DNA of 64,000 nt from Erythrobacter sp. JK5. Its GTDB lineage: Bacteria; Pseudomonadota; Alphaproteobacteria; Sphingomonadales; Sphingomonadaceae. The notes under the pieces were generated by a model that saw only the letters and a program-made list of their open reading frames with translations, did not search any database and was not told where the DNA came from. The first letter of the stretch is position 1. Each line of letters starts with the position of its first letter. This document shows positions 13,350-44,974 of the stretch, piece by piece. Location of the stretch: positions 2,108,001 through 2,172,000 of the forward strand of contig NZ_CP073577.1 in the NCBI RefSeq assembly GCF_018205975.1, read 5' to 3'. Position numbers and translations under genes: made by a program.

Positions 13350-13993
13350 TGCCGCGCCTGCGCGAAGTGCCGAAGGGCGAGGCGGACGAGAAGGTGGCGC
13401 TGCCGCTCTATGCGATGCTGTTCGGGACACGCGATCCTGTCACCGAACCGGGCACGGCCACCGGCACTCCGGGCGACTGGTGGACGGTATTCGCCAATTC
13501 GCCTGCGACGCTCAAGCATGCCGCGCAAGGCTTCGCCTATTATCGCTCGCCCGAGCGCAAGCTCGATCCGGTGCTGCGCGAGCTGGGGCAGACCTGGGCC
13601 GGATGGGCGACCGGCAGCCAGTTCGTTTTCTCGCAGCATTGCAAGAGTCTGCGCGGGTTGGGCGTGTCGGAGGAAAAGATCGAAGCCCTGCCGGTCTGGC
13701 AGACAGCGGGATGCTACGACGAGAAGGAACGGCTGGTCCTCGCCTACGCAGATCGCCTCGTGTCGCATGGCGGGCGCGTGCCCGACGCGCTGTTCGCGCA
13801 GGTCCGGGATGCCTTCTCCGACGAGGAGATCCTCGAACTCACCTACATCACCTGCATGTACCACATGCACGCGATCATGAGCCGCGCGCTGCGGACCGAG
13901 TTCGACGATCGTGACGATCCGATTACCGAGGTTGCGGCGCCCGATGACTTCGATGCACTCGATTTCCTCGGCGGGGAGCGCGGGAAAGATTAG
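13349..13993 (+). CDS. Carboxymuconolactone decarboxylase family protein
   Basis: This 214-residue protein is mostly alpha-helical. It has the CMD/AhpD-like core FVFSQHCKSLRGLGVSEEKI, where Ser-Gln-His-Cys occupies the place of the usual Glu-x-x-Cys or Glu-x-x-His motif. A second helical segment contains ELTYITCMYHMHAIMSRAL. It overlaps the upstream VOC gene by one base. Its 3' end meets the convergent thiolase-like gene with a 4-bp overlap. Family members decarboxylate lactones or act as peroxidase-like enzymes; the real substrate is unknown. Confidence 0.75.
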   Translation: MPRLREVPKGEADEKVALPLYAMLFGTRDPVTEPGTATGTPGDWWTVFANSPATLKHAAQGFAYYRSPERKLDPVLRELGQTWAGWATGSQFVFSQHCKSLRGLGVSEEKIEALPVWQTAGCYDEKERLVLAYADRLVSHGGRVPDALFAQVRDAFSDEEILELTYITCMYHMHAIMSRALRTEFDDRDDPITEVAAPDDFDALDFLGGERGKD

Positions 13994-39561: not shown

Positions 39562-39569
39562 GGGAAATG
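39562..39569. other. Target-site duplication, left copy
   Basis: GGGAAATG directly abuts the left terminal inverted repeat. The identical octamer abuts the right repeat at 44893-44900. Eight-base duplications are characteristic of IS1595-family transposition. Confidence 0.95.
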
Positions 39570-39596
39570 CGGCCTTTGCCAGCAAACGCACCAAGA
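39570..39596 (+). repeat. Left terminal inverted repeat (27 bp)
   Basis: Exact reverse complement of 44866-44892. Matching stops at the base after each end, so 27 bp is the full perfect repeat. Confidence 0.95.
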
Positions 39597-39638
39597 GCCA
39601 TCTAGCGCTTTCCGCCCGCCCCAGCGATCCTATGGGGC

Positions 39639-40142
39639 ATGGCAAAAACAAACAGACTAGCTTCGAACGAAAGGAAGATGCGTGCCCTCCTTGGTGAGCG
39701 GCGCGATCTGGAGAATCGGATTCAAAAGGCCGAAAAGCTCGTTGGCAACATCGACACGATGAAGGCTCGGCTACAAGAGATCGAGAATCGAATCGAGAAC
39801 GGCATTCGTTGGATTCAGGATGACCATCCGAGTTGGACGCCTGATCATCTCGATCCAAAAAAGCCCTTTGTGCATCATAATCTGATCAAGTTCGGCAACG
39901 GGACCAAGCTGACCCTTGCGATCCTTCGTGAGGCGTTCGAGCCGATGACAGTGCGAGAGATCGCAGCCGAGGCCATCCGCAGAGAGGGTCACGAGACCTT
40001 CACAGATGAAGAGCTTGATACAGCCGCCAATACCGTCAACGCGGGCCTCAAGCGCCAGATTCAGCTTGGAGCCCCCATCTCCCACGATAACCACTACCCA
40101 CGCCGGTGGTTCTCACTCGTGGAAAATGGCGACGAACTATAG
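39639..40142 (+). CDS. Transposon cargo: coiled-coil plus winged-helix-like protein
   Basis: A 167-residue protein. Residues 8-60 form a charged coiled coil (RRDLENRIQKAEKL). Residues about 95-145 look like a winged helix (TLAILREAFEPMTVREIAAEA, then ELDTAANTVNAGLKRQI), reminiscent of HARE-HTH-type DNA-binding or modifier domains. It is the first gene inside the left end. ATG at 39639 sits just after a GCCCCA/TGGGGC hairpin that could mask its GGGG ribosome site. Possible roles are an accessory transposition protein or a regulator; neither is shown. Confidence 0.65.
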   Translation: MAKTNRLASNERKMRALLGERRDLENRIQKAEKLVGNIDTMKARLQEIENRIENGIRWIQDDHPSWTPDHLDPKKPFVHHNLIKFGNGTKLTLAILREAFEPMTVREIAAEAIRREGHETFTDEELDTAANTVNAGLKRQIQLGAPISHDNHYPRRWFSLVENGDEL

Positions 40143-40304
40143 AGCACAACTATAGAAGTTGATTGTGACACGTGATTTTCAAATAAAACTTGAGCTATTC
40201 ACTTTACAGATTGACTATTAATAGCGACTCGGACAAATATGAATGGCCATTGCCAAGACAAAAAACCCTTGCAAGGTCAATATTTTTCTTTAAATGACGA
40301 TTCG
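40143..40304. other. AT-rich non-coding stretch in the transposon
   Basis: No gene is seen. It contains duplicated AACTATAGA elements near the preceding stop and short palindromes (CTATTAATAG, CCTTGCAAGG). It could carry the promoter for the hairpin-rich leader that follows. Confidence 0.4.
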
Positions 40305-40447
40305 TTCGCTTGAGAAAGCGAAACCCCAGAGCGGCGGCAACCGATCTGGGGTCTCTTTCACACGCCCCTTTGTCATAGAAAGGAGGGTGATGTCGTGCGC
40401 ATTACACGCGCCACGCAGCGCTATTACTTGACTCCGATATAGGAGTC
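40305..40447 (+). ncRNA. Candidate structured RNA / leader with three hairpins
   Basis: Hairpin 1 (40305-40322) is a perfect 7-bp stem with a GAGA loop of the GNRA type. Hairpin 2 (40323-40352) follows with no gap: ACCCCAGA pairs with TCTGGGGT around a 14-nt loop and is followed by CTCTTTC. An AAGGAGGG Shine-Dalgarno and a 15-codon ORF come next. Hairpin 3 (40430-40447, GACTCC/GGAGTC) covers the ORF stop. Back-to-back helices with a GNRA loop suggest a folded RNA or attenuator. No known class is recognised. Confidence 0.45.
40395..40442 (+). CDS. Possible 15-codon leader peptide
   Basis: GTG start eight bases after a strong GGAGG gives MRITRATQRYYLTPI. Too short for any family call. The strong ribosome site and flanking hairpins are the only support, so this is tentative. 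Confidence 0.3.
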   Translation: MRITRATQRYYLTPI

Positions 40448-40460
40448 CAGCCGGAAATGA

Positions 40461-40682
40461 TCACTCGGTGAGCCGTAGGGTCTCTACGTTCATCACGGCC
40501 AACGCGGAGAGAAAGAAATCTGCCGTGAAGGACCCTCGGCTCACCTTGTTCCTGATCGACGCCTCGGATGCCTCGATCCCCTCTGCCGCCAACAACTCAG
40601 ACAGATCGGCATAGCTCACCTCGCGCCGGACCATTTCGGCGCGGAGGATTCGGGCTGCCAGCTTATCACCTTTTTGGGACAT
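40461..40682 (-). CDS. DUF6471 family protein
   Basis: With ATG at 40682 the product is 73 residues and begins MSQKGDKLAARILRAEM. The pattern of a helix, YADLSELLAAEGIEASEASI, then NKVSRGSFTADFFLSALAVM is that of DUF6471, a small predicted helix-turn-helix domain often near IS1595-like transposases. It is divergent from the transposase with a shared control region of about 65 bp and may regulate it. A longer frame starting at 40721 is possible but would invade that region. Confidence 0.75.
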   Translation of the reverse strand: MSQKGDKLAARILRAEMVRREVSYADLSELLAAEGIEASEASIRNKVSRGSFTADFFLSALAVMNVETLRLTE

Positions 40683-40714
40683 AAATCTCACATATGACAT
40701 ATTTATCGCCAGAA

Positions 40715-40780
40715 GTGACACAAAGGCTCTTGCGAATCTGGGACATATGTGTCACATCCGATACGAACGTAACGTATCGG
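40715..40780. promoter_or_regulatory. Inverted repeats in the DUF6471 / transposase control region
   Basis: GTGACAC (40715-40721) and GTGTCAC (40749-40755) are inverted copies. CCGATACG-N7-CGTATCGG (40758-40780) is a perfect 8-bp dyad that ends at a GGAGGA purine run. They are candidate operators or mRNA hairpins limiting transposase expression. Confidence 0.45.
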
Positions 40781-41796
40781 AGGAAAAAGCGAAACACTTT
40801 CACACTTCATCGGCTTCCGTCAGCCTTGGTATTCTCGACATCACCGATATGTCCGAGGACGAATGCGAGCGTGCGGTTGAGCTAATCCGGTTCGCTAAGA
40901 CGAACGGAGAGCCACACTGCGTTTGGTGTGATTGCGAGGTCGCCTACAGGATCAATCGGACGGTCAAGAATCGAAAGACAGGCGAAGTTCGCACGCGCCG
41001 CCTATTCAAATGCAAGAAGTGCCTCAAGCAGTTCTCCGTGACATCGGGGACCGGTTTTCATGGCCGGAAGCTCAGCTTTAAGAAAATCCTCCTCGGCGCT
41101 CTGCTGTGGGTGGATACCGAGTCTGGGTTGGCCGGGCTCGAAATGAAACGTCAACTCAAGTGCAATCACAAATCGGGTTGGCACCTTGGGCAACGTCTCC
41201 GCCACACAGCAACCAGTTACGTCACTTCGGAACTGGTGGAAGGTGACTTCGAGATGGACAGCACGTCGTTTGGTGGCAGCGTCCGCAAAGCCAACGAGGC
41301 CGAAGCTCGCAAGAAGCAGCCACGCCGCGACGAATCCAAAGTCACAACTGTCTCGATCCTGAGGGAAAGGAAGCCCGGTGGGCGCGTCGTACCGTTTCTC
41401 GGAAACGAAGCGCAGTTAGCTAGAGTGATCGGTCAGGTTGCCGACATCGAAGGGCGGCCGTTTGTTGACGAACATTCAGCGTGGAACGCCCTCTTCGCGA
41501 TCTTCCCCGAGGTCAAACAGATCAAGCACAAGGACCGTTATTCGGACGGCAAGGGCGTTTCGACGAATTTGGCGGAATCCTACTTCTCACGCTTCAAGCG
41601 TATGTATCGGGGAGTCTACTTCTCGTTCTCCTCGCAATATGCTCACGTCTATAACGGCGAAGGTGCGTGGCGGGAGCGCCACTGCCGTGTCCCGAACGGC
41701 GATAAATTCGTCAATGTTCTGGCGGGCGTGCTCCACCACCCGCCAACACCCATGAAAGGCTATTATCAGCGGACGCGGCGCAGGAAGGCCGTGTAG
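40747..41796 (+). CDS. IS1595-family (ISXO2-like) transposase
   Basis: A 349-residue transposase. It has an N-terminal zinc ribbon (Cys58/Cys61 in CVWC, Cys89/Cys92 in CKKC). An HTH-like segment follows (FKKILLGALLWV...GLEMKRQL). The DDE-type core has Asp171 (EMDSTSFGG), Asp241 (FVDEHSAW), the Asn274/Glu277 segment (STNLAESYF) and Lys284 (SRFKRMYRGVY). This is the DD(N/E)K arrangement of IS1595. The start at 40747 is uncertain: the next in-frame ATG is 40849 and no ribosome site is well placed for either. All catalytic positions look intact. Confidence 0.92.
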   Translation: MCHIRYERNVSEEKAKHFHTSSASVSLGILDITDMSEDECERAVELIRFAKTNGEPHCVWCDCEVAYRINRTVKNRKTGEVRTRRLFKCKKCLKQFSVTSGTGFHGRKLSFKKILLGALLWVDTESGLAGLEMKRQLKCNHKSGWHLGQRLRHTATSYVTSELVEGDFEMDSTSFGGSVRKANEAEARKKQPRRDESKVTTVSILRERKPGGRVVPFLGNEAQLARVIGQVADIEGRPFVDEHSAWNALFAIFPEVKQIKHKDRYSDGKGVSTNLAESYFSRFKRMYRGVYFSFSSQYAHVYNGEGAWRERHCRVPNGDKFVNVLAGVLHHPPTPMKGYYQRTRRRKAV

Positions 41797-41996
41797 TGGC
41801 TACCTTCACGATTCACTTGATAGGCCAGTCGTTGCCGCTCACGATCGATCTCGACTGCCAAAGTGTCGATGAGCTTGCAGAGTTAGTCGCGCAGTCCAGG
41901 TTCGTCCTTGGTCATTTGGAGGACGCCGACGAGGATGGTGTTTGTCGGCGTGTAATGGTGGCGACCGGTCGGATACAGTGCGCAATTGAAGCCTAG
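41796..41996 (+). CDS. Transposon cargo: 66-aa acidic protein coupled to transposase
   Basis: GTG overlaps the last base of the transposase stop (TAGTG), so translation is coupled. The 66-residue product starts ATFTIHLIGQSLPLTID, with alternating beta-strand pattern, then an acidic helix (VDELAELVAQSRFVLGHLED). It looks like a small beta-beta-alpha protein, perhaps a transposition accessory factor. No family is recognised. Confidence 0.6.
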   Translation: MATFTIHLIGQSLPLTIDLDCQSVDELAELVAQSRFVLGHLEDADEDGVCRRVMVATGRIQCAIEA

Positions 41997-42121
41997 ACGA
42001 TCACATATCCGACAAGCAGAAACAGGCCCCCAATTACGAGCGTCATGAGGCCTTTGATCAGATCACGAGCGCCCCGGCTAACAATGGCTGCGAGGATGAG
42101 AAGGCCAATCAACCAGAGCAT
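41993..42121 (-). CDS. Transposon cargo: 42-aa two-helix membrane peptide
   Basis: ATG at 42121 overlaps the stop of the upstream gene (ATGA). The 42-residue product is two hydrophobic stretches (WLIGLLILAAIVS and GLMTLVIGGLFLLVGYVIV) joined by a short basic turn (RGARDLIKG). The 3' end overlaps the convergent 66-aa gene by 4 bp. Small two-span peptides of this kind are often holin-, toxin- or chaperone-like, but no function is shown. Confidence 0.55.
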   Translation of the reverse strand: MLWLIGLLILAAIVSRGARDLIKGLMTLVIGGLFLLVGYVIV

Positions 42122-42564
42122 CAAATCGGCTCGACCGCGCCCGTCCGGACGTTGACCAAGTAGTTAGACTGCCCAGTTCCATCCCGGTTTGTTATGCACC
42201 CAATTCCGTAATGGGATTGGTCAACCTTCAACATCTCGTATGGTATGGCACAAAGATAGCCTTTCACGTTGATTGAAGCGCTCACATAATCCACCGATTG
42301 TCGCCACCGCTTCTCCTCTTCTGGCGATCTGTCCTCATCTCCTGAGAACGCCTCAAGGATGGCCTCTTCCAGAGCCGTAGTGTCATCGGAAGGAGGCTCG
42401 CTACTAATTGCGTCACCGAGGACGGTTGCTTGCGGTTCTGTTTGGGAACCCTTGATCGTCTCACCCTCCTGAGCAACCGAACGCTCACGCCCTGCCTCTC
42501 CAAGGGCAGCCACAAATGCAATGGCCAGAACGATCGCCCCAGAGCCTTTGACCACCCAGTGCAT
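42121..42564 (-). CDS. Transposon cargo: exported or membrane-anchored protein, unknown function
   Basis: A 147-residue protein. ATG at 42564 follows AGGAGG. Residues 7-22 are hydrophobic (GAIVLAIAFVAALGEAG), a signal or anchor. An acidic low-complexity stretch follows (about 40-90). A C-terminal domain with two Cys contains GYLCAIPYEMLKVDQSHYGIGCITN. It shares a transcript with the 42-aa membrane peptide. The gene points away from the C-protein gene, with an 85-bp shared upstream region that contains the C-boxes. Confidence 0.6.
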   Translation of the reverse strand: MHWVVKGSGAIVLAIAFVAALGEAGRERSVAQEGETIKGSQTEPQATVLGDAISSEPPSDDTTALEEAILEAFSGDEDRSPEEEKRWRQSVDYVSASINVKGYLCAIPYEMLKVDQSHYGIGCITNRDGTGQSNYLVNVRTGAVEPI

Positions 42565-42610
42565 TGATTATCCCTCCTGCCAAAAGAATCGCGCCAAAGG
42601 TTAACAGCGG

Positions 42611-42636
42611 GATTCATACTCCGTGGACTGATAGTC
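42611..42636 (+). promoter_or_regulatory. Tandem C-boxes upstream of the controller-like gene
   Basis: Box 2, GACTGATAGTC (42626-42636), is a perfect GACT-N3-AGTC dyad. Box 1, GATTCATACTC (42611-42621), is degenerate. They are separated by CGTG and repeat with a 15-bp period. Sequence, linker and period match the C-box operators that controller proteins of restriction-modification systems bind. Confidence 0.65.
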
Positions 42637-42658
42637 CGCACTGTCGAGATTGGGAAGG

Positions 42659-42898
42659 GTGGACCCATATCTCGACATTCTCGGCCAACGCATCCGCGCC
42701 AAGCGGAAGGAACTCGGCATGTCGCAAGAAGGTTTAGCCAATGAGGCTGGGCTCGATCGCAGCTATGTCGGCCGGATCGAGAGAGGCGAGCACAACCTGA
42801 CCTTTGTCTCGCTGGTGAGGCTGTGTCGGGCGATGGGGTGTGACGTGGCCGCTCTGACGGGCGACATACCAGCAGGCACAAAACAAGGCTTAACCTAA
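42659..42898 (+). CDS. XRE-family controller (C) protein-like regulator, orphan
   Basis: A 79-residue HTH protein (GTG at 42659; a TTG three codons earlier is an alternative). The five-helix XRE fold is clear: LGQRIRAKRKELGMSQEGLANEAG, then LDRSYVGRIERGEHNLTFVSLVRLCRAMG. Size and the DRSYVGRIERGEHN recognition region are those of C.PvuII/C.AhdI-type controllers. Tandem C-boxes lie 22 bp upstream, which supports autoregulation with a delay and leaderless or nearly leaderless expression. No methylase or endonuclease gene is present in the transposon, so its targets must be other cargo genes. Confidence 0.8.
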   Translation: MDPYLDILGQRIRAKRKELGMSQEGLANEAGLDRSYVGRIERGEHNLTFVSLVRLCRAMGCDVAALTGDIPAGTKQGLT

Positions 42899-42929
42899 AC
42901 TTGACTTTAGGTTAAGATTTGAGTATACT
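42889..42929 (+). promoter_or_regulatory. Sigma-70 promoter overlapped by a perfect 11-bp inverted repeat
   Basis: TTGACT (42901-42906) and TATACT (42924-42929) are 17 bp apart, an almost ideal promoter for the gene at 42988. CTTAACCTAAA (42889-42899) and TTTAGGTTAAG (42906-42916) form an 11-6-11 dyad enclosing the -35 box, so a bound repressor would block it. Alternatively the dyad is a hairpin ending the C-protein transcript. Confidence 0.65.
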
Positions 42930-42987
42930 CTGTGTCGCTCGATTGCGATGGGCTAGCGAGCATCCCCACATATTATTGGAAGGTACG

Positions 42988-43206
42988 ATGGCGAAGGAAT
43001 ATCCTAGCCGACGTGAGGATTGGTTCGTCCCACATGAGACGACCCTCAAGCTGCCTGACGGACGCGAAATCACCGTAGACGGCATCCCCTATGAAGGCTG
43101 GGGCACCGCCCCCGGTGTTTGGGGAATTGTCGAAAATTACGAATACACGAAAGAAGGTGGACTAAGGTTCGATTTCGTCCATCGCTGGGTCATTCCTCAG
43201 CGATGA
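42988..43206 (+). CDS. Transposon cargo: 72-aa protein of unknown function
   Basis: ATG at 42988 follows GGAAGG by five bases. The product is 72 residues, rich in aromatics (Trp and Tyr: REDWFVPHE, PYEGWGTAPGVWGIVENYEY), and looks like a compact all-beta domain. It has its own strong promoter under an 11-bp dyad. Its 3' end overlaps the convergent 81-aa gene by 17 bp. No family is recognised. Confidence 0.6.
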   Translation: MAKEYPSRREDWFVPHETTLKLPDGREITVDGIPYEGWGTAPGVWGIVENYEYTKEGGLRFDFVHRWVIPQR

Positions 43207-43435
43207 TGTTGCCCTGTTCATCTAAGGGCACCCCGTTGTTGCGGCAACGCGTCCAATTGGGACAATCGTCTGTCATCATGTCCGAGGCATTCGGATGAGT
43301 GCAACGGTCAGAGCGATCATTGGGGTCTTCTGAGTATCGGCGGTCGGGTATTGGCCCAAATGTGACGACTGCGGCGAAGCCGCAAACATCGCATCGGACA
43401 CCGAAGTGCCTTGCCTCGTAGCGCTGCTGATTCAT
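43190..43435 (-). CDS. Transposon cargo: 81-aa zinc-ribbon-like protein
   Basis: An 81-residue protein with an early Cys-x2-Cys (VRCDVCGFAA) and later Cys residues in RCTHPNAS and DDCPNWTRC, enough for one or two metal sites. The end is acidic (GNIIAEE). No convincing ribosome site is visible. It converges on the 72-aa gene and lies between the controller module and the SLATT operon. Confidence 0.55.
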   Translation of the reverse strand: MNQQRYEARHFGVRCDVCGFAAVVTFGPIPDRRYSEDPNDRSDRCTHPNASDMMTDDCPNWTRCRNNGVPLDEQGNIIAEE

Positions 43436-43497
43436 TTCGAAACGCCCATCACCAATCTAATAGACACGGAGCGGCTATGCGACCTGAGACTTAAAGA

Positions 43498-44073
43498 TCA
43501 GTTGCTTTCGCCACCCTCTTTTGGGCGCGAGGGAGTAGCTGTCTTTTTGATTTCAGGAAAATCGACTTGAAAGGTTCCGAGATGGATAAATAAGCGCTGA
43601 AAACGCCCAATTCTCACTAACCCCTCAGTGATCCCCATGTGCGTTCTGGTTTGATTTTCGCAATCATTCGCGAGCGCTCTCAATTCACTGACACAGTCAC
43701 CTTCGATTTCAGCCCTAGCTTGGTTCCACTCGCGTAAATCATCCTCACTAGGATCAGGCGTAGCGCGAATATCGTTGGCCAGTTTTTCCCAAGCTTTCAT
43801 CCATTCCGCATGGCGAGCACCTGTTGCCCCGAAACCGTAGACTACCTGTCCTATGGCAAGTGCAGAGATCAACAAAGCCGCCAATTGTGCGATGAGAGTA
43901 GGTCCTCCTTGTATAAGGCTAACGAAAACGCTCGTCCCCGCGATGATAGATATGAGGTTCGAGAGTTTATCTAGGCCGATCAAAAAAGAAGCGCGCCGCC
44001 TGTGGTATCGTGCTGAATACTCCGCACGGTATTCCAGTCTGAAGCGCTCGTCGAGGCGCTGCTCTTCATTCAC
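43498..44073 (-). CDS. SLATT-like two-transmembrane protein
   Basis: A 191-residue protein. GTG start overlaps the stop of the upstream gene (GTGA). A basic N-terminal helix (EYRAEYSARYHRRRASF) leads into two membrane spans (about 37-54 and 59-80). A long charged helix follows (ARHAEWMKAWEKLANDIRAT...). This is the layout of SLATT proteins, predicted pore-forming effectors associated with nucleotide-signal and abortive-infection systems. The similarity is by layout and pattern, not alignment. It is the last gene of a three-gene cargo operon transcribed away from tRNA-Trp. Confidence 0.6.
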   Translation of the reverse strand: MNEEQRLDERFRLEYRAEYSARYHRRRASFLIGLDKLSNLISIIAGTSVFVSLIQGGPTLIAQLAALLISALAIGQVVYGFGATGARHAEWMKAWEKLANDIRATPDPSEDDLREWNQARAEIEGDCVSELRALANDCENQTRTHMGITEGLVRIGRFQRLFIHLGTFQVDFPEIKKTATPSRPKEGGESN

Positions 44074-44237
44074 TTTTTGTTCGGTCGAGTAGGAGGCTTT
44101 AGGTTTGAAGTCACCTTTTGCTCGGTGAGCGGTCGGGTGCCTTTACCACTATCACGCAACTCCGTTTTCTGCGTGCTGATGACACTCTTGTCTTGCGATT
44201 TGTCTTTGCCAGCTTTGTTTTCGGGCTTATCAGCCAT
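44070..44237 (-). CDS. Transposon cargo: 55-aa Lys-rich disordered protein
   Basis: ATG at 44237 comes right after the stop of the preceding gene, with GGGG upstream; an ATG at 44249 would overlap that gene. The product is highly charged and low in hydrophobics (MADKPENKAGKDKSQDKS... PPTRPNKK). It overlaps the SLATT-like start by 4 bp, so the two are coupled. It could be an antitoxin-like or nucleic-acid-binding partner; nothing proves it. Confidence 0.5.
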   Translation of the reverse strand: MADKPENKAGKDKSQDKSVISTQKTELRDSGKGTRPLTEQKVTSNLKPPTRPNKK

Positions 44238-44238
44238 A

Positions 44239-44733
44239 TTAGACCCCATTGCTTTCTGCTTGTGTGAGCACATCGGACGACCAGACTTCGGTATTTGGAT
44301 CATCGTCCAAAACCACTTTCCAGCGAGTGAAGCCGATCGCGGTCGTCGGCACCGAAGACCGGATTACCCCATCATTGAGCCGCAAACACTGCCGCATCAT
44401 GGGACGCTCGTTCTGCAATCGAACATAAAGTCCATCCGGTGCGACCCAAGCCGATGTATTTTCTGAATTTGTCGCTGACGATAAGTCAACCTCAGCCCTA
44501 AGCTCATCGACGACGGCTGCATGGCCTGACAGGTTATCGATAAAAACTGTATGCAGGGAATGGCTGCTTGGCGCTTCCCCAGACAAAGGAACGACAACTG
44601 TCGATCTGTCTGGATTTTGTCCATCAAATCTCGCCGACAGGCAAAGCATTCCCTCACCTAAGTAAGGGTAATAGAAGATGCTCCCGACGGGGACTTCTTC
44701 GATATGCTTGATGGCTGGAGTTTTGGTAAGCAA
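44239..44733 (-). CDS. Transposon cargo: 164-aa protein of unknown function, first gene of SLATT operon
   Basis: TTG at 44733 has GGGAGG six bases upstream. The 164-residue protein is predicted mainly beta-stranded (VGSIFYYPYLGEGMLCLSARF, STVVVPLSGEA, HTVFIDNLSG), with a polar C-terminus. It might be a sensor or immunity component for the SLATT-like membrane protein. Upstream is only 132 bp to the terminal repeat and then tRNA-Trp on the same strand, so expression from read-through is possible. Confidence 0.55.
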   Translation of the reverse strand: MLTKTPAIKHIEEVPVGSIFYYPYLGEGMLCLSARFDGQNPDRSTVVVPLSGEAPSSHSLHTVFIDNLSGHAAVVDELRAEVDLSSATNSENTSAWVAPDGLYVRLQNERPMMRQCLRLNDGVIRSSVPTTAIGFTRWKVVLDDDPNTEVWSSDVLTQAESNGV

Positions 44734-44865
44734 ATGGACCTCCCCCGCAACACGATAGTGCGAAAGCCCACACCTGCAACCGACTCAGCATTGATGCTTG
44801 GGGAAACAGCACTACAGCGACTCAAATCGCGATAAAGCCATTTGTGCATTTGCTACCCAATACCG

Positions 44866-44892
44866 TCTTGGTGCGTTTGCTGGCAAAGGCCG
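44866..44892 (-). repeat. Right terminal inverted repeat (27 bp)
   Basis: Perfect inverted copy of 39570-39596. The outer end is followed at once by the target duplication, which runs into tRNA-Trp. Confidence 0.95.
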
Positions 44893-44900
44893 GGGAAATG
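44893..44900. other. Target-site duplication, right copy (overlaps tRNA CCA end)
   Basis: GGGAAATG, identical to 39562-39569. Its last two bases are part of the encoded CCA of tRNA-Trp, so duplication regenerated the tRNA end. Confidence 0.95.
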
Positions 44901-44974
44901 GCAGGGGTGACAGGATTCGAACCCGTGGCCCTCGGTTTTGGAGACCGATGCTCTACCAGCTGAGCTACACCCCT
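44899..44974 (-). tRNA. tRNA-Trp (anticodon CCA)
   Basis: A 76-nt cloverleaf with encoded CCA. The acceptor stem is AGGGGTG/CACCCCT, discriminator G. The D-loop region is TAGCTCAGCTGGTAGAG. The anticodon loop CTCCAAA gives CCA, and the T-arm is GGGTTCGAATCC. The transposon lies immediately downstream of its 3' end. Confidence 0.97.

Follow-up and report, generated by a model that had tools for sequence, protein, structure and literature searches.

Among DDE transposons, Tn7-like elements are the best-known case of site choice guided by a protein, and in them it involves an AAA+ adaptor. These elements choose their sites by means of TnsD, TniQ and TnsF: those with TnsF, and likewise Tsy, go into comM, where the conserved region is Walker B, and the TnsD of CRISPR-associated transposon (CAST) I-D homes near tRNA-Leu (PMC10293859). 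Within the IS1595 family of insertion sequences (ISs), ISApl4 is 712 base pairs (bp) long and is present in 39 copies in one genome, and the duplications that it makes at many sites are preferably A/T-rich (PMC12561309); IS copies that carry passenger genes have been termed 'transporter ISs' (PMC3129680). Here we describe an element of 5,323 bp (positions 39570-44892) in the chromosome of Erythrobacter sp. JK5. It lies in a stretch of 64,000 nucleotides (nt; contig NZ_CP073577.1, 2,108,001 to 2,172,000), which we call the window and whose numbering is used throughout. It resembles the described IS1595 ISs in its DDE transposase, terminal inverted repeats and 8-bp duplication, and passenger genes are known there too (PMC12561309, PMC3129680); unlike ISApl4, it and its relatives are 1.9-10.3 kilobases (kb) long, have an extra, putative selector protein and occupy fixed conserved sites (PMC12561309). 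We read it, with a probability of roughly 0.83 judged from sequence comparison, as a site-specific IS1595-family transposon in which a separate small protein, here called ORF1, would bind a conserved host sequence and place the transposase at a fixed distance from it. ORF1 would in that case be a modular target selector, working like TnsD or TnsF of Tn7 minus the AAA+ adaptor. The features on which this reading turns are the following.

39562 to 39569, no strand: left copy of the 8-bp target duplication, GGGAAATG
39570 to 39596, + strand: left 27-bp terminal inverted repeat, 100% complementary to the right end
39639 to 40142, + strand: ORF1, 167 amino acids, the proposed target selector; all 55 bounded elements, the window's among them, have a member of its family
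40747 to 41796, + strand: IS1595-family DDE transposase with zinc ribbon, 349 amino acids (Pfam, NCBIfam)
44866 to 44892, - strand: right 27-bp terminal inverted repeat
44893 to 44900, no strand: right copy of the target duplication, GGGAAATG, its last two bases within the CCA end of the tRNA
44899 to 44974, - strand: tRNA-Trp (cca), the target, left intact (ARAGORN, Rfam)
44913 to 44923, - strand: T-arm GGTTCGAATCC, the putative recognition sequence; its GGTTCGA starts 23 nt before the duplication

The DDE domain, the zinc ribbon, the inverted repeats and the 8-bp duplication together make this an IS1595-family transposon. An earlier note on this DNA had already called it a complete, cargo-bearing member of that family, and the ends, the length and the Pfam and NCBIfam matches of the transposase agree with it: 74.8 bits against PF12762 (DDE_Tnp_IS1595; cut-off 27), 28.5 bits against PF12760, the N-terminal zinc ribbon (cut-off 25.4), and 83.9 bits against NF033547, the NCBIfam IS1595 model (cut-off 75). 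The left end is complementary to the right at 27 of 27 nt, with no mismatch, which confirms the coordinates and the perfect repeats given in that note, and the low G+C content that it remarked upon was found as well (0.53 inside the element vs 0.60-0.71 per kilobase across the remaining window). No third copy of the 27-bp end occurs in the 3.34-Mb genome, in which only the element's two ends match; a second, ordinary IS1595-type transposase lies elsewhere in this genome (G000:C1:516657-517445). The bounded structure is not due to chance, because 55 elements, the window's included, share this type of end and 53 of the 55 have an exact 8-bp duplication.

The earlier note was silent on the tRNA overlap and on the element's most unusual property, a base-exact targeting that follows ORF1. 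The right-hand duplication shares two bases with tRNA-Trp, namely the last two of the tRNA (the CA of CCA), and because of this overlap we examined the insertion sites of relatives. A first scan of genome contigs with the transposase gave no confirmed match, and a search at E 1e-20 of 298 genomes of the family found relatives of it in 32. An alignment of 23 transposase relatives (A1) was used for wider searches of genome samples that overlap in part; full-model matches of at least about 340 bits were found at 36 places in 35 of 396 genomes and, in the second sample, at 18 places in 16 of 385, and a separate lower group (about 140-230 bits) consisted of other IS1595 transposases and some fragments. 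We fetched 72 loci, among them the window's own element (L064 in the comparisons), and set bounds where an inverted repeat flanking the transposase was joined to an 8-bp repeat. This gave bounds for 59 loci and none for 13; four were judged spurious (L048, L081, L096 and L097), and 55 elements were kept. They range from 1,944 to 10,259 bp (median 3,750 bp), and in 35 of them 20 of 20 end bases are alike. At L147:6028-7023 (Rhodobacteraceae), two inward-facing ends lie 996 bp apart, with no transposase found on the 8-kb piece, and this pair may be a non-autonomous derivative.

Recurrent insertion sites agree to the base, and insertions occur in both orientations. At ten of the 55 elements ARAGORN finds a tRNA (isotypes Trp, Gln, Ser, Pro and Arg) whose last two bases are in the duplication, always at the 3' end and in a single register, and in all ten the duplication follows the start of the T-arm's GGTTCGA by 23 nt. 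An eleventh tRNA-class element, L084, sits at a tRNA-like 3' fragment in which ARAGORN finds no tRNA, and was labelled from the similarity of its site. Seven elements are inserted at the Walker B codons of comM and nine at a second comM position, four at each of two positions in an NfrB-like glycosyltransferase gene, and four in a repeat containing GTCATTCC; the two genes were named from NCBIfam and Pfam matches at four sites, two per gene. When 195 flanks were clustered without labels (the 55 elements gave 110 of them and named loci 85), the comM, repeat and tRNA sites and one glycosyltransferase site were recovered, while at the other glycosyltransferase site only two of the four joined and L047 and L142 formed a separate tRNA pair; an equal number of random 38-mers gave no pair at the clustering threshold. 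A further recurrent site, the GGNACNTCNAAYCATTT sequence, was seen in four named genomes (L119, L127, L153 and L171), and two elements with sister ORF1 proteins (L041 and L086) are both centred in short palindromes.

The named genomes provided a check by an end-pattern search, which covered at least 80 loci and 87 ends. Among the matches listed, a tRNA lies within 150 bp outside seven of the 87 ends, in all seven cases at its 3' end and with a gap of exactly 6 nt. Two of the seven belong to genomes already used; the tRNA counted for L146 was found at its opposite end (L154, on the same contig, with the complementary 8-bp duplication).

The ORF1 family is a single cluster of open reading frames (ORFs) present in 55 of 55 elements, with lengths of 133-192 amino acids; in 52 of the 55 the gene starts less than 130 bp from one end and reads inward (median start 68 bp). 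Six target labels had been set from the sites before this family was found, and the tests of how target and protein are associated used 36 rows, that is, the 39 labelled elements minus three in which a gene was missing or broken; the 16 unlabelled elements were excluded. Besides ORF1 and the transposase, the tests took in one more gene of the element.

40461 to 40721, - strand: DUF6471 protein, 86 amino acids (Pfam PF20075, E 3e-25), divergent from the transposase; in 49 of 55 elements

Nearest neighbours had the same target in 34 of 36 cases for ORF1, in 13 for the transposase and in 11 for DUF6471, with about 6 expected at random; when all 39 labelled elements are taken, the ORF1 nearest neighbour agrees in 37, and in 39 when sites in the same gene are merged. 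On trees of the 36 elements the labels change 6 times for ORF1 (the minimum possible being 5) and 18 times each for the transposase and DUF6471, compared with 22.8-22.9 for shuffled labels. An earlier comparison of 35 with 12 changes used other rows and labels and is not relied on. The transposase as sole determinant of the target was rejected on this contrast of 18 with 6 changes over the same rows. On the ORF1 tree the repeat class forms a single clade, both glycosyltransferase sites share a clade, and the eleven tRNA-class members fall in one clade, together with two unlabelled elements. The gene family at the opposite end agrees with the target in only 3 of 17 cases (random 3.0), and nearness to the site therefore does not explain the ORF1 signal. 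In nine pairs of elements compared, the DUF6471-transposase core is common and the left and right parts differ. The transposases of L039 (comM) and L043 (glycosyltransferase) are 95% identical and their ORF1 proteins 33% identical; L070 sits at tRNA-Gln, and its transposase shares 88% identity with the one of a repeat-targeting element, its ORF1 about 50% with two tRNA-class proteins.

The alternative that survives best is that the transposase itself recognises several sites, ORF1 being only a regulator that hitch-hikes beside the insertion site. A start at a median of 68 bp from the end is a natural position for a regulator, transposase nearest neighbours do share their target above random (13 of 36 vs about 6), and the labels are somewhat clustered on the transposase tree (18 changes vs 22.8 shuffled, with 3 for the tRNA class). 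We nonetheless consider this explanation unlikely: near-identical transposases occupy different sites, the gene family at the opposite end does not track the site, and insertion in both orientations and at five tRNA isotypes requires repeated targeting. Sixteen new loci (among the matches listed, as for the counts that follow) have an ORF1 homologue that best matches a labelled element. ORF1 predicted the target in 11 of the 12 with at least 40% identity over 100 amino acids, a threshold picked after viewing the table of predictions, and in 11 of 16 with no threshold.

Several observations weigh against ORF1 as the target selector. The transposase tree is not free of target signal, as noted above, and 16 of the 55 elements, those left out of the tests, have no recurrent target. 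Among the predictions, L165 was wrong above the threshold, as were the weaker L107, L111, L167 and L182, and five elements (L046, L085, L053, L075 and L092) fall within ORF1 target clades but are inserted elsewhere. Of the 17 loci outside the 55, eight have an ORF1 homologue and nine (of the 72 fetched) have none detected; six of these nine are close to a contig end (within about 1.3 kb) and three are not. The related transposases of these three, L045, L048 and L081, may rely on a different partner for targeting. It could also be the transposase, rather than ORF1, that reads the T-arm. The predicted structure of ORF1, long N-terminal helices followed by a C-terminal winged-helix-like domain, comes from a model with a predicted template-modelling score (pTM) of 0.48, and Foldseek returned no match to this model at E 0.001 or better. 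At the L085 site ARAGORN finds no tRNA, yet GGTTCGA lies exactly 23 nt from the duplication; this suggests a reading of the DNA word itself.

The window's ORF1 matches no Pfam family above cut-off, with a weak HARE-HTH match below it; Pfam matches across 53 family members were few and weak, and no solved relative had a convincing E-value. A protein search with ORF1 returned two homologues only (90 and 86% identity) and a plasmid search none, and an alignment search of the phylum found the family in 18 of 398 genomes. Eleven of those places were fetched along with one other, and at 8 of the 11 a related transposase lay near ORF1. In a genome from another class of the phylum, an element (L284:8946-18727) with a GAAAAATT duplication holds two transposases and a weak ORF1 homologue.

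In the mechanism that we propose, the transposase would cut and join the 27-bp ends, generating the 8-bp duplication, while the ORF1-family protein would bind a conserved host sequence and so bring the transposase to a set distance. In the window's element the sequence recognised would be the T-arm GGTTCGAATCC; the duplication, which begins 23 nt after its start, includes the CA of CCA, and the tRNA stays whole. Other versions of ORF1 would send related elements into comM, the NfrB-like gene or the repeat. Comparison of the elements gives their ends, their duplications, base-exact recurrent sites, an ORF1 in every bounded element and a target that tracks ORF1 over the transposase; from it we infer that ORF1 itself binds the target DNA and contacts the transposase.

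A different kind of explanation would be a guide RNA, encoded by the element and pairing with the target as in IS110/IS1111. Close relatives pick different sites in both groups (PMC11208160, PMC11187229), and the fast target switching seen here resembles the description of IS1111/IS110 (PMC11187229). However, IS110/IS1111 combine a DEDD enzyme with a bridge RNA or seekRNA guide (PMC11208160, PMC11187229), whereas the transposase here is of the DDE type, and Rfam found no match in the element, only the neighbouring tRNA. Two tests of contiguous words gave no signal, and a guide RNA of that kind was rejected: flank and element have no contiguous match above background, and the non-coding parts share no excess of 6- to 10-mers with the site. 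We regard a guide RNA as very improbable, although a shorter or split one might escape these tests. Near-random insertion, with the tRNA and comM sites as tolerated survivors, would accommodate the 16 of 55 sites that lack a recurrent target but is scarcely credible, as recurrence is exact to the base pair with none in the random comparison, and the seven tRNAs beside the 87 named-genome ends (among the matches listed) all stand at the same 6-nt gap.

With regard to the site before insertion, the earlier note had predicted an empty-site sequence to be found in other strains. In all 29 other same-genus loci (30 fetched, including the window's) tRNA-Trp adjoins an aat homologue and is present without this element, and in 10 of the 29 the symporter that is the element's left neighbour lies on the other side of tRNA-Trp. 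The prediction thus held as to tRNA-Trp without the element but not as to the exact joined sequence, which was not seen: every match listed, except that of the window itself, starts at base 23 or later of the 176-base joined site. In one same-genus locus (L240) a different end-like sequence, CTTATGGCGCAAAAGAACCAA, directly follows tRNA-Trp, and the stretch fetched around it (L286) yielded no transposase or ORF1. Elsewhere in the window, ARAGORN reports a tRNA-Met at 13817-13917 that, at 101 nt, is unusually long.

The DUF6471 protein is probably a regulator; it found no mention in the literature searched. The remaining genes of the window's element are its cargo and small ORFs.

41796 to 41996, + strand: 66-amino-acid ORF overlapping the transposase stop; its cluster (family 6) is in 8 of 11 tRNA-class elements, the window's included
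41993 to 42124, - strand: 43-amino-acid hydrophobic cargo ORF
42121 to 42564, - strand: 147-amino-acid cargo protein (family 28), with relatives in two further tRNA-class elements
42650 to 42898, + strand: XRE-type helix-turn-helix (HTH) regulator, 82 amino acids (family 11), with relatives in four further tRNA-class elements
42988 to 43206, + strand: 72-amino-acid cargo ORF, no Pfam match
43190 to 43435, - strand: 81-amino-acid cysteine-containing cargo ORF, no family above cut-off
43498 to 44073, - strand: 191-amino-acid cargo protein, weak SLATT_4 match (E 8e-4, 19.3 bits, cut-off 55)
44070 to 44303, - strand: 77-amino-acid small ORF, start uncertain, no Pfam match
44239 to 44733, - strand: 164-amino-acid cargo ORF, no Pfam match

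The earlier note had suggested that this cargo may be a mobile defence or conflict module. For the window's element that suggestion found no support: the SLATT match is far below its cut-off, PADLOC on 10 ORFs gave a good match for the XRE gene only (generic control-protein HTH models) and a weak 2TM match, and the defence reading was rejected with only the HTH domains of the XRE gene above cut-off in Pfam, NCBIfam and PADLOC. Across the 55 elements, 119 of the 131 cargo ORFs of at least 120 amino acids were scanned, and defence-type cargo does occur in some group members, since type I restriction-modification, cytosine (C5) methylase, Panacea-domain and Schlafen-type genes were found there. 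The sister elements L047 (10.3 kb) and L085 (9.0 kb) carry type I restriction-modification cargo.

The 3' ends of tRNA genes are also targeted by the integrases of phages and genomic islands. Unlike these, the present element has no recombinase domain found by a Pfam scan of its ORFs, and its inverted repeats and 8-bp duplication argue for DDE transposition rather than an integrase. Similar to Tn7-like elements, a dedicated protein would here select a conserved chromosomal site, with the target tracking the ORF1 family. Unlike theirs, the putative selector has 133-192 amino acids with helices and a winged-helix-like domain, and no AAA+ adaptor or TniQ was found; among the 13 ORFs of the element scanned, Pfam matched no TnsB-type transposase, TnsC AAA+ ATPase or TniQ/TnsD. 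Insertion is also at the tRNA end itself, whereas the Tn7-like CAST I-D inserts 30-33 nt beyond it (PMC10293859). We found no description of IS1595 elements that target tRNA genes or comM, judged by titles and the beginnings of abstracts, mostly from outside subscription journals and preprints, so a prior description is possible.

These elements probably represent two-part protein-guided targeting outside Tn7, in which an IS-type DDE transposase is paired with one exchangeable protein of about 150 amino acids that has at least five specificities (the tRNA T-arm, two comM sites, the NfrB-like gene and the GTCATTCC repeat), converging independently with Tn7-like elements on comM and tRNA genes. 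This suggests that an unrelated mobile element, with other proteins, has also arrived at comM and tRNA ends. If true, a single transposase directed by one small, exchangeable protein would add a second solution to that of Tn7, and a simpler one, and one would have to ask how transposase and selector are coupled without an ATPase. Such a system would also be a compact candidate for targeted DNA insertion, and the natural swaps of ORF1 would make the idea directly testable.

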